Assembly (NCBI GenBank): GCA_024640225.1
Contig: JAHEFK010000021.1
Coordinates: forward strand, 1-39,210
Reading direction: 5' to 3'
From: Bacteroidota bacterium
Lineage (GTDB): Bacteria; Bacteroidota; Bacteroidia; Chitinophagales; Chitinophagaceae
DNA: 39,210 nucleotides
This document shows, one piece after another, positions 1 to 3,261 of this stretch. The position numbers and the translations under genes were made by a program. The notes under the pieces were generated by a model. The model saw only the letters and a program-made list of their open reading frames with translations. It had not been told where the DNA came from and ran no database searches. Each line of letters begins with the position of its first letter. Within the stretch, counting starts at the first letter, position 1.

Positions 1-1865
1 GCATCAGCTACATTATCATCTTGTTTTTCATTAGTAGCACCTTCGTTTGCTGCAGCTTCTTGTGGGTTGCCTGCATACATATGCTCGCTAGCTGCCGACC
101 AAGCGGTATTTAATGTTTCCATTGCGGTATCGATACCTGCTAAATCTTCAGCTTTATGTGCATCTTTCAGCGCTTGTAAAGCTTTTTCTATAGCTTCTTT
201 TTTGTCTGCAGGTATTTTGTCTGCATTGTCTTTCAATTGTTTTTCAGAATTGAAGATCAAACCATCTGCCATATTTAATTTTTCTACACGCTCACGTACC
301 GCTTTATCTGCTTCTTCGTTTGCTTTAGCTTCGTTCTTCATTTTTTCAATCTCTTCTTTACTCAATCCAGAACCTGCTTCGATACGAATATTTTGCTGTT
401 TGCCAGTGCCTTTATCTTTTGCCGTTACATGCAAGATACCATTTGCATCGATATCAAAGATAACTTCAATTTGAGGCACACCTCTTTGTGATGGTGGAAT
501 ACCGTCTAAGATAAAACGACCTAAAGATTTATTGTCCTTAGCCATAGGGCGCTCACCTTGCAATACATTGATTTCTACACTAGGCTGATTGTCTGCAGCT
601 GTAGAGAAGGTTTCGCTTTTCTTAGTTGGAATGGTAGTGTTCGATTCTATCAAGCGTGTCATTACACCGCCCATGGTTTCGATACCTAAGCTAAGTGGCG
701 TAACATCAAGTAACAATACATCTTTTACATCGCCACTTAATACACCACCTTGAATAGCAGCACCAATAGCAACTACTTCATCAGGGTTTACTCCTTTATT
801 TGGTTTTTTACCAAAGAACTTTTCTACTACTTCTTGAATTTTAGGAATACGAGTAGATCCACCCACTAATATAACCTCATCAATATCGCTGGTGCTCAAT
901 CCAGCATCTTTCAATGCTTTTCGGCATGGTTCTAAGGTGCGTTCAACTAAGCTATCAGCTAATTGTTCGAATTTTGCACGCGTTAATTTGCGCACTAAGT
1001 GTTTAGGCACACCATCAACCGCTGCGATATAAGGCAAATTGATTTCTGTTTCTTGAGAAGAAGATAATTCAATTTTTGCTTTTTCTGCCGCTTCTTTCAA
1101 TCGTTGCCAAGACATTGGGTCTTTGCGTAGATCGATAGCTTCATCATTTTTAAATTCAGCAGCCAACCAATCCATGATTACTTTATCAAAATCATCGCCC
1201 CCTAAGTGCGTATCGCCATTAGTAGATTTTACTTCAAATACGCCATCGCCTAATTCTAAGATCGAAACGTCGAAGGTACCACCACCTAAGTCGAATACTA
1301 CGATCTTGCTATCCGTATGTTGTTTGTCCATACCATAAGCTAATGCAGCAGCAGTAGGTTCATTGATGATACGACGCACATTCAAGCCTGCAATTTCACC
1401 TGCTTCTTTGGTCGCTTGGCGTTGTGCATCATTGAAATATGCAGGTACGGTAATTACCGCTTCGGTTACATCTTGACCCAAAAACTCTTCAGCCGTTTTC
1501 TTCATTTTTTGAAGAATCATAGCAGAAATTTCTTGTGGAGTATACATGCGGTCATCGATTTGAACGCGTGGTGTATTGTTGTCGCCTTTTTGAACTGCAT
1601 ACGAAGAGTCTGCAATGTCAGCACCTACTTCATCAAATCTACGACCCATAAAGCGTTTGATAGACATGATGGTGTTGGTAGGGTTGGTGATGGCCTGGCG
1701 TTTTGCAGGATCACCTACTTTACGCTCGCCATTTTTTAAGAAAGCAACTACCGAAGGGGTAGTGCGACGACCTTCGTCATTTGCAATTACAACGGCTTCA
1801 TTGCCTTCCATTACAGATACGCAAGAGTTGGTGGTTCCTAAGTCAATACCAATAATTTTTCCCAT
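1..1865 (-). CDS. dnaK: Chaperone protein DnaK (Hsp70), 3' end outside window
   Basis: ATP-dependent Hsp70 chaperone that binds unfolded polypeptides in the cytoplasm with DnaJ and GrpE. Reading leftward from the ATG at 1863-1865 gives 621 codons. The actin-like ATPase domain starts with GIDLGTTNS (residues 6-14), a phosphate-binding signature. [11 protein letters not shown] follows near 190-200, and the substrate-binding domain begins near residue 390. The frame is still open at base 3, so the last roughly 15-20 residues of a usual 635-640 residue protein lie outside. The tail seen (Asn/Ala/Glu/Asp-rich, near bases 1-60) fits the acidic, variable DnaK C-terminus. No dnaJ or grpE is visible. 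The upstream region holds a sigma-54-like element and two dyads and no CIRCE repeat, listed separately. Identification is certain from motifs. Confidence 0.98.
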
Positions 1866-1910: not shown

Positions 1911-1928
1911 TTCAAAAAATGTGCCAAA
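1911..1928 (-). promoter_or_regulatory. Sigma-54-like -24/-12 element upstream of dnaK
   Basis: On the minus strand the bases read TTTGGCACATTTTTTGAA. This matches the sigma-54 consensus TGGCACR-N4-TTGCW except that the -12 GC is GA. The GG-to-GA distance (10 bases between) is the canonical spacing. The predicted start would be near 1900, giving a leader of about 35 nt before the dnaK ATG. Seen: the motif and its spacing. Inference: it acts as the dnaK promoter. The missing C at -12 is a real weakness. Confidence 0.45.
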
Positions 1929-1930
1929 GC

Positions 1931-1963
1931 CATATTTGTGCAAATATGTCAGCAATACTGACA
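1931..1963. promoter_or_regulatory. Two abutting dyad symmetries upstream of dnaK
   Basis: CATATTTG-TG-CAAATATG (1931-1948) is a perfect 8+2+8 palindrome. TGTCAG-CAATA-CTGACA (1947-1963) is a perfect 6+5+6 palindrome sharing two bases with the first. They sit directly upstream (for leftward transcription) of the sigma-54-like element, where an activator or repressor would bind. No CIRCE sequence (TTAGCACTC-N9-GAGTGCTAA) is present. Function as heat-shock operators is inferred. Confidence 0.5.
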
Positions 1964-1972
1964 AAGCTTAAT

Positions 1973-2008
1973 AAAAATGCCTTAACAAGCTGTTGTTAAG
2001 GCATTTTT
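1973..2008 (-). terminator. Rho-independent terminator after the DUF4249 gene
   Basis: AAAAATGCCTTAACAA and its exact reverse complement are separated by the loop GCTG, a 16-bp stem with A and T flanks that works on either strand. It begins 23 bases beyond the DUF4249 stop. It would also insulate dnaK from readthrough. Confidence 0.85.
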
Positions 2009-2031: not shown

Positions 2032-3129
2032 TCAATGGTCGGATAGGCCTTTGATATTTAAACTAATGGTTTCGGGATGCGTTTTGAGGGATTCGAAACT
2101 AAAGGGATCCATGCCAATATTAAATTTTCGTTTTACGGCACGACTGGTAAAGATACCTATCACATCTGTAGCGCTGCCACTGGATTGCAAATTGGACCAG
2201 GTTGGTTTGATCTGGTCAGCAGTAAGTCCACCGGTATTATTATTGATTAAATTATAGGTATATAAATCACTACTACCTGCCCATATAAAAATATCGCTAC
2301 TGTCGATATAGCGTTCTATATTAGCTGGTGCTGGACCAATAGCATTTCTGATAGCCGTATAAAAAGATGTTTTATAAGTGCCCATCACAATATTCTCTCT
2401 TGCGTTGAGGGTCGTAATCACGCAGTTGTCGTTAAACATCCAATCTTGATAATGATCGGTGCTGGTGCCATTACTAATATTCTTATCAACCCAATGGAAA
2501 CGAATAATGCCATTGTAGAATTTAGCATAATTGGGAGATCCAATACCTAATTCGTAACGGGCAAATTGGTTGACATCCTTAAAGCGAATGAGATAACTAG
2601 GGTCATAGTCGATTTCATTCACCGTAAATTTGGTGCTGTCTTTAGCGATAATAGGGGTGACGCCAGTAATGATTTTACCATTTGCATTGATACGCAGCAT
2701 GTAATCGAAAGCGTCGCTCAAAGGAGTTTTAAATTTATAGGCAATATTGGGTAATTGGCTAAAGGTGCCTGGTTCTTTAGGATAGCCTTCGATGCTCAAA
2801 TCCACTCTTTGTAATGTGAATGTTTGATTGATGGAATCGTTTGGTCGGATGCCCGTATTGGGATTTGGTTTTTTTAATTCATAAACCGTTACGCTCAAAT
2901 TTTTATAGTAGATAGAATCGGTTGTTGTAGCCATAACCAGTGCATTTTTAGATTCGTCTAAAAAGGCTTTGTGAATGCGGATGTAATGGGCAGTATCACT
3001 TATGTTGAGTAAGCCATACACAATGGTGATATCTTTGTAAGGGGCATCAATTTTAAAATCCTTTGAACAAGAACTTACTAATTGCACAACGCAAAGGAGG
3101 ATCAGAAAACGAGTAATAGTAAAACGCAT
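2032..3129 (-). CDS. DUF4249 family lipoprotein
   Basis: A Bacteroidota-specific, presumably periplasm- or outer-membrane-associated lipoprotein of unknown function. The ATG at 3127-3129 gives 365 residues starting with a classical lipoprotein signal: MRFTITRF, hydrophobic core, lipobox LVSSC (Cys21). A TTG seven codons upstream is possible but less likely. The N-terminal motif APYKDITIVYGLLNISDTAH is the family's recognisable opening. DUF4249 genes usually sit beside a TonB-dependent receptor gene, but none is next to this one. It stands alone between a terminator and the divergent argS. Family assignment is by recognition; role in import or surface structure is unknown. Confidence 0.85.
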   Translation of the reverse strand: MRFTITRFLILLCVVQLVSSCSKDFKIDAPYKDITIVYGLLNISDTAHYIRIHKAFLDESKNALVMATTTDSIYYKNLSVTVYELKKPNPNTGIRPNDSINQTFTLQRVDLSIEGYPKEPGTFSQLPNIAYKFKTPLSDAFDYMLRINANGKIITGVTPIIAKDSTKFTVNEIDYDPSYLIRFKDVNQFARYELGIGSPNYAKFYNGIIRFHWVDKNISNGTSTDHYQDWMFNDNCVITTLNARENIVMGTYKTSFYTAIRNAIGPAPANIERYIDSSDIFIWAGSSDLYTYNLINNNTGGLTADQIKPTWSNLQSSGSATDVIGIFTSRAVKRKFNIGMDPFSFESLKTHPETISLNIKGLSDH

Positions 3130-3261
3130 GATTGAAAATTTTCGCTTCAAAGATAGGTAATTATGTAGCTTCTACTTCAAATTGAAGCAGGTATTTATTG
3201 GATTTAACAAGCTACTCAGATAATACATTTATAAATTGTATTTTTGCATAAATTCATTGCC
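3130..3261. other. Divergent intergenic region between the DUF4249 gene and argS
   Basis: 132 bases with no gene. It contains a perfect 13-base dyad CTTCAA-A-TTGAAG at 3175-3187 and a promoter -7 box TATTTTTG at 3239-3246 for argS. No convincing -33 box was seen for either direction. Confidence 0.5.
3239..3246 (+). promoter_or_regulatory. Bacteroidota -7 promoter box (TAnnTTTG) for argS
   Basis: TATTTTTG followed by C, matching TAnnTTTG, 15 bases before the argS ATG. A start a few bases downstream would leave a leader of about 10-13 nt. No TTG at the expected -33 distance, so only the -7 part is supported. Confidence 0.5.

Follow-up and report, generated by a model that had tools for sequence, protein, structure and literature searches.

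How a bacterium without the HrcA repressor controls its main chaperone gene is the question raised by the dnaK locus analysed here. The window is a stretch of 39,210 nucleotides and forms the entire contig C1 of the genome under study (G000, 96.5% complete), a member of the Chitinophagaceae (order Chitinophagales, class Bacteroidia, phylum Bacteroidota). Chaperone induction without HrcA is only partly described in Bacteroidota, a phylum that includes major gut and environmental bacteria. An initial annotation had proposed, from the letters of this stretch, that dnaK is under heat-shock control by an enhancer-type or other regulator, unlike HrcA. That view is partly supported here: comparison with other genomes brings out a conserved sigma-54-type promoter geometry, elements phased with it and the absence of HrcA and CIRCE, and it yields one candidate activator protein and one candidate site.

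The dnaK regulatory region

The features of the region, in window coordinates, are as follows.

3..1865, minus strand: dnaK coding sequence, identified by translation, with its start at 1865 and its 3' end cut by the contig end.
1900, minus strand: predicted transcription start (+1), placed from the promoter geometry with GG taken as -25/-24.
1911..1927, minus strand: sigma-54-type promoter TTGGCACATTTTTTGAA, with GG at 1925-1924 (-24 box) and TTGA at 1915-1912 (-12 box).
1931..1948, no strand: dyad CATATTTG-TG-CAAATATG (CATATTTGTGCAAATATG), probably incidental; its half CATATTTGCAC is conserved, the other half is not.
1938..1952, minus strand: conserved promoter-proximal element CTGACA-TA-TTTGCAC (CTGACATATTTGCAC), with its CTG beginning 27 bp before GG of the -24 box.
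1947..1963, no strand: dyad TGTCAG-CAATA-CTGACA, a probable activator site, judged from its sequence and from TG[ACT]CA enrichment and phasing.
1959..1963, minus strand: second half-element TGTCA, 38 bp upstream of GG, which with 1947-1951 makes the perfect dyad 1947-1963.
About 1973..2008, no strand: terminator-like hairpin with inverted repeat CCTTAACAAGCTGTTGTTAAGG and flanking A- and T-runs, between dnaK and a minus-strand gene at 2032-3150.

The hairpin bounds the dnaK regulatory region on its upstream side. The promoter is the reverse complement of 1911-1927, and the distance from its GG to the GA at 1913-1912 gives the spacing of sigma-54 promoters, GG-N10-Gx. Both palindromes that had been described, at 1931-1948 and 1947-1963, are perfect, lie where they were placed and have 2 bases in common. 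In the window, TTGGCAC-N5-TTGNA has one exact match and, with up to two mismatches, 24 matches against 15.9 expected, a count reached in 2 of 100 shuffles. TGTCAG-N5-CTGACA matches once with up to two mismatches (0.77 expected), and of 2000 shuffles of the 106-bp dnaK upstream region, 70 contained a dyad with 8-bp arms and 652 one with 6-bp arms. The promoter match and the dyads, each by itself, are weak evidence; the strength of the case comes from conservation.

Conservation of the promoter

We compared the region with those of 80 relatives of the gene, the best 80 of 575 confirmed in the genome collection, with 75-99% identity. The count took in the window and 79 loci whose upstream sequence was 74 nt or longer, with the motif sought within 160 nt (L083, with 25 nt, was left out). 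All 80 regions had GGCA-N6-TTG ahead of dnaK, against a mean of 1.6 and a maximum of 4 in 20 shuffles, 1 far upstream and 2 on the reverse strand. The longer TGGCA-N6-TTG was present in 71 of 80 (shuffled mean 0.3; far upstream 0; reverse strand 2). Together with the spacing read directly in the window, these counts confirm the near-perfect -24 box and canonical spacing that had been noted. The GA at -12 had been taken for a deviation; it is the usual state, as the base following TTG is A in 70% of the 80 regions, T in 23% and C in 5%. Set against the sigma-54 form GG-N10-GC, all 80 regions have GG-N10-G and the final C is mostly replaced by A, so that GC is found only in part. The sequence TAnnTTTG, which the available text of PMC9723704 names as the housekeeping box of the phylum, occurred in 1 of the 80 upstream regions and never between the -12 box and the start codon.

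A wider survey took one genome from each of 48 other families, of which 46 gave a dnaK region with a recognisable start (L255, with no start found, and G149, with no dnaK match, were dropped). The strict GGCA-N6-TTG motif was present in 25 of these 46. Among the same-class families outside the order it was found in seven of nine, and the other two have GGTA-N6-TTG by eye. It was absent from 21 of the 46 regions; ten of these 21 follow an hsp20-like gene, recognised by eye from translated C-termini, so their promoter may lie farther up. We also observed an hsp20-like gene, again named by eye, often directly upstream of dnaK in other classes (L200, L206, L210, L212, L215, L218, L219, L223, L256 and L266), where the two probably form an operon. 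Judged by sequence comparison, the dnaK promoter in the window is a sigma-54 promoter of a known but under-explored kind.

Elements upstream of the promoter

Upstream of dnaK in the relatives, TG[AC]CA has its main peak 26-27 bp before GG and smaller ones at 37 and 15; the -12 box itself, as TTGACA, accounts for a further peak at +11. Homology among the sequences contributes to these peaks, and common ancestry inflates any of them. Phasing was assessed after L068 and L083 had been taken out and near-identical rows removed, which reduced 79 promoters to 70, or to 28 at about half identity. In the 70 non-redundant promoters, TG[ACT]CA occurred 117 times against 22.2 in shuffled sequence (about 5-fold), with R = 0.74 at a 10.5-bp period, a value that none of 500 shuffles reached. 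With the main peak left out, the remaining 71 sites gave R = 0.65 with the phase unchanged, 176 against 171 degrees (0 of 2000 same-size draws), and the 32 sites outside the main peak in the set of 28 promoters gave R = 0.72 (0 of 2000). For TGTCA alone the phasing was not significant, 240 of 500 shuffles being as high.

The common unit, as the aligned regions suggest, is a TG[ACT]CA element, typically CTGMCA-N2-TTTKCAC, in helical register with the -24 box. In the window it takes the form CTGACA-N2-TTTGCAC, which is common to relatives, and its placement at 1938..1952 follows from the -26/-27 peak and from a CTG at -27 that also stands at lon and groES of the same genome. The initial annotation had suggested that a dyad of the TGTCA...TGACA type might be shared among relatives. 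A TGTCA/TGACA-type site does recur, but what is kept is the TG[ACT]CA element and not the palindromes. Only the window and L025, a locus with a 99% identical DnaK, have the CATATTTG dyad in perfect form. We rejected the palindromes as the conserved unit; eight of the 80 regions, the window and L025 among them, match the CATATTTG dyad at 6 or more of 8 positions in that location.

A search for the dyad-promoter layout at groES of relatives had also been proposed as a check. Sigma-54-type sites are present there and TG[ACT]CA is enriched (84 against 19.1 expected, with at least one in 35 of 35 promoters; L192, with 53 nt, left out), but the positions of the elements are spread. Enhancer-binding proteins usually act from 80-150 bp upstream. 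The TG[ACT]CA elements lie nearer to the promoter than this, which counts against reading them as activator sites.

Similar promoters at lon and groES

In the genome under study, TTGGCATAATTATTGAA precedes lon and TTGGCACAATTTGTGCA precedes groES (genes named by eye from translations), and at each of dnaK, lon and groES a CTG begins exactly 27 bp before GG. The pattern CTG-N24-GGCAY-N6-TG has three matches in the 1.85 Mb genome, namely dnaK, lon and groES, and one in the reversed control. It was picked after the three promoters had been viewed, so it shows specificity and is not an independent discovery. There was no match to it at clpB, htpG or grpE of this genome, and no exact TG[ACT]CA within 75 bp of its groES promoter. 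The canonical TTGGCAY-N6-TGC matched 14 times (reversed control 5), 12 times inside open frames of at least 150 codons; one of the two matches outside such frames is that of groES. TTGGCAN6TTGNA matched 24 times (reversed control 2), 18 of them clearly inside genes. Hsp20 had no match in this genome.

Three further sites were observed. At L005 (G000:C3:8054-8070, minus strand), TTGGCACGATTATTGTA comes right after a terminator-like hairpin and precedes a short open frame, hydrophobic and about 63 residues long (MDMRMYFKFLVIGIVFSVAGLC...). At L012 (G000:C20:23090-23106, minus strand), TTGGCACGGTTATTGTA lies about 150 nt upstream of a dipeptide-epimerase-like gene, named by eye, at a contig end. 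At L014 (G000:C24:1155-1171), TTGGCATCAAAATTGAA lies about 190 nt upstream of a clpC-like gene and overlaps the start of a divergent small gene.

HrcA and CIRCE across the phylum

Among genomes from the other classes of the phylum, 32 of 39 had an HrcA match; among the 21 searched from this class, the genome under study included, none did. The CIRCE consensus used in the scan was TTAGCACTC-N9-GAGTGCTAA. Its best match in the genome under study has 9 of 18 mismatches at dnaK, in agreement with the initial annotation that no CIRCE is present there, and 8 at groES. With at most three mismatches, CIRCE lies upstream of groES in 30 of 37 regions from other classes; in the eight same-class groES regions with a start found (L352, L360 and L362, with none, were left out), the best match has 8-10 mismatches. 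Those eight regions all have TGGCA-N8-G within 125 nt, at doubtful positions in L350 and L353. Within the order, TGG[CT]A-N8-G[ACT] occurs in 26 of 27 groES upstream regions (0.9 in shuffles) and the stricter TGGCA-N8-G[AC] in 19 of 27 (0.3 in shuffles).

HrcA/CIRCE occurs at groES in other classes of the phylum; it was not found in the 21 genomes searched from this class, where groES has sigma-54-type sites instead. Within a single phylum, this class thus seems to rely on sigma-54 for a role that HrcA has in most of the genomes sampled from the other classes. Seven genomes of other classes have no HrcA match, and six of these also have no CIRCE at groES (L322, L328, L335, L337, L341 and L346). 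The groES of L328 has a TTGGCA-type sigma-54-like site and that of L322 a TTGGTA-type one.

Sigma-54 and the candidate activators

A search for rpoN and activators, which had been proposed as a check, returned one rpoN gene and two genuine enhancer-binding proteins in the genome under study. The rpoN gene (G000:C19) encodes all of AID, CBD and DBD. All 59 genomes of the relatives set carry rpoN, as do 294 of 296 in the phylum set, the genome under study being counted in both; G301 and G342 of the phylum set had no match. Co-occurrence of rpoN with the motif was discarded as evidence because a gene found in 294 of 296 phylum genomes makes it uninformative. A second match to the sigma-54 DNA-binding domain was seen in 9 of 36 same-family genomes (G004, G006, G010, G011, G013, G017, G027, G030 and G034), which probably carry a second rpoN gene.

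Six proteins of the genome match PF00158, and the two that are genuine enhancer-binding proteins by score are here called EBP1 and EBP2. EBP2 consists of PF00158 at residues 12-178, a long linker and a Fis-type helix-turn-helix (HTH_8) at 370-410; no Pfam match, and so no recognised sensor domain, precedes residue 12. It is the only HTH-bearing enhancer-binding protein found in this 96.5% complete genome. PspF, ZraR and FleQ are among the proteins of solved structure related to its AAA+ domain. PspF, the enterobacterial phage-shock activator, likewise has an AAA+ sigma-54 activator domain, no N-terminal sensor and a Fis-type HTH; EBP2 differs in its long variable linker before the HTH and in a miaB-lptE neighbourhood that is often followed by groES.

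An EBP2-like match was found in 48 of 48 families, with orthology made uncertain outside the class by paralogues. Of the nine same-class families from other orders, seven have EBP2 on the strand of groES and 1.8-3.5 kb upstream of that gene; the adjacency is missing in the other two. The gene order miaB-like, EBP2, lptE-like, at least one further gene, groES, groEL recurs in these seven families and in G039; the genes were named by eye or by regular expression, and the frames listed for G126 did not include groES. In its own order, EBP2 lies beside groES in only one (G039) of ten genomes with both placed, which weakens its link to groES; the two are apart in G000, G002-G007, G036 and G038. In the genome under study EBP2 sits between miaB and lptE, and the miaB-EBP2 operon seems to start from a housekeeping box, TAACTTTG.

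EBP1 (L141, G000:C16) adjoins gyrB and has REC and AAA+ domains with no HTH; the Pfam reading is that of its sister L143. L141 was viewed together with L135, L139, L140, L143, L145 and L152. In those of the same family that were read, the protein stops right after the AAA+ domain, while L135 and L145, relatives from the same order, end by eye in an HTH-like stretch. EBP1 has apparently lost its DNA-binding domain or belongs to a lineage that lacks it.

A model for dnaK control and its alternatives

We consider it likely that dnaK has a sigma-54 promoter with promoter-proximal activator sites and that EBP2 is the most probable activator, a candidacy that follows from its groES neighbourhood in other families and from the fact that no other enhancer-binding protein found here bears an HTH. 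RNA polymerase with RpoN, the sigma factor that we infer to act here, would bind GG-N10-GA and wait as a closed complex. An enhancer-binding AAA+ protein on the TG[ACT]CA elements, about 50-62 bp upstream of the start and on the same helix face, would then open the complex. This protein would most likely be EBP2, which is PspF-like in having no sensor domain and combines AAA+, a variable linker and a Fis-type HTH. EBP2 would be switched on by unfolded-protein stress, for example by a chaperone being titrated away from it, and dnaK would presumably be heat-induced. We give somewhat less than an even chance to a broader version, in which Bacteroidia swapped HrcA/CIRCE for an activator-driven response, with a class-wide EBP2 on phased TGNCA beside the sigma-54 promoters of dnaK, groES and lon and chaperone titration acting via the linker in place of a sensor domain.

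The alternative that survives best, although we regard it as unlikely, is that a repressor or architectural protein, either an HrcA substitute or an IHF-like factor, occupies the TG[ACT]CA elements, and that any enhancer-binding protein opens the promoter. The sites are near the promoter and in register with it, their A/T-rich core could be bent, and with HrcA missing a substitute repressor might be expected. However, a sigma-54 closed complex stays silent until an activator acts on it, which makes a repressor unnecessary. The elements shift in position by roughly whole helical turns, as expected for contact with an activator, a pattern that is also compatible with a repressor or architectural protein.

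Slightly less probable still is activation of the sigma-54 promoter by EBP1 from solution, with the TG[ACT]CA elements serving as sites of another factor. EBP1 is the sole other genuine enhancer-binding protein found in the genome, and there is precedent in FlgR and CtcC for such proteins acting without a DNA-binding domain, so that its lack of an HTH would be no obstacle. Phased and conserved elements nevertheless call for a DNA-bound partner, and the HTH-like ends of L135 and L145 indicate that the HTH-less form is not order-wide.

An ordinary housekeeping (sigma-A) promoter, with the sigma-54 match and dyads arising by coincidence, is very improbable. Several partial sigma-54 matches do occur by chance in the window and 6-bp-arm dyads are common, but the motif is conserved in all 80 regions, TAnnTTTG lies downstream of the -12 box in none of them, and mapped starts are reported for a relative, Flavobacterium psychrophilum, in the available text of PMC9723704. 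Control of dnaK by HrcA/CIRCE, the usual chaperone control in the other classes of the phylum as the CIRCE sites at groES attest, has next to no likelihood given 21 class genomes of 21 with no HrcA match (for the genome under study, barring the roughly 3.5% of it that may be missing) and CIRCE matches no better than those given above.

Relation to published work

That sigma-54 controls dnaK, groESL, lon, grpE and htpG in Bacteroidota has been published before (PMC9723704, PMC12316311). The predicted sigma-54 regulon of 33 classes includes chaperone control in Bacteroidota and Planctomycetota, and the Bacteroidota promoters are enriched for DnaK, GroES, GroEL, GrpE, DnaJ, IbpA, Hsp90 and ATP-dependent proteases (PMC12316311, accessible sections). 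The consensus given in those sections is TGGCAC-N5-7-TTGCT, whereas dnaK here has TTGA, and they give no activator or activator site. None of sigma-54, rpoN, heat shock and dnaK is mentioned in the available main text of PMC7366714. In the accessible open-licence literature we recognised no other report that deals with these upstream elements or gives EBP2 a role in heat-shock regulation; relative to that literature, the phased TG[ACT]CA elements, the CTG-N24 pattern of three promoters and EBP2 as candidate activator are new.

The closest known system is the SM4 group of F. psychrophilum promoters, which comes from the same phylum and has the same genes and a -24/-12 motif (PMC9723704, available text, as for all that follows). 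Mapped 5' ends with a sigma-54 motif are reported there at dnaK, groESL, lon, grpE-dnaJ, htpG and clpB; of the SM4 promoters, those of groESL, lon, dnaK, grpE-dnaJ and htpG fall in one co-expression cluster and that of clpB in another. Three PF00158 proteins were counted in that species, and the clusters may correspond to distinct activators. In contrast to the present analysis, that text assigns no activator and describes no upstream element, and it places a regulator-LptE unit under a different motif, SM5. In this unit a probable sigma-54 regulator is followed by LptE (THC0290_0733/0732), with locus tags near that of groES (THC0290_0729), an arrangement that fits EBP2.
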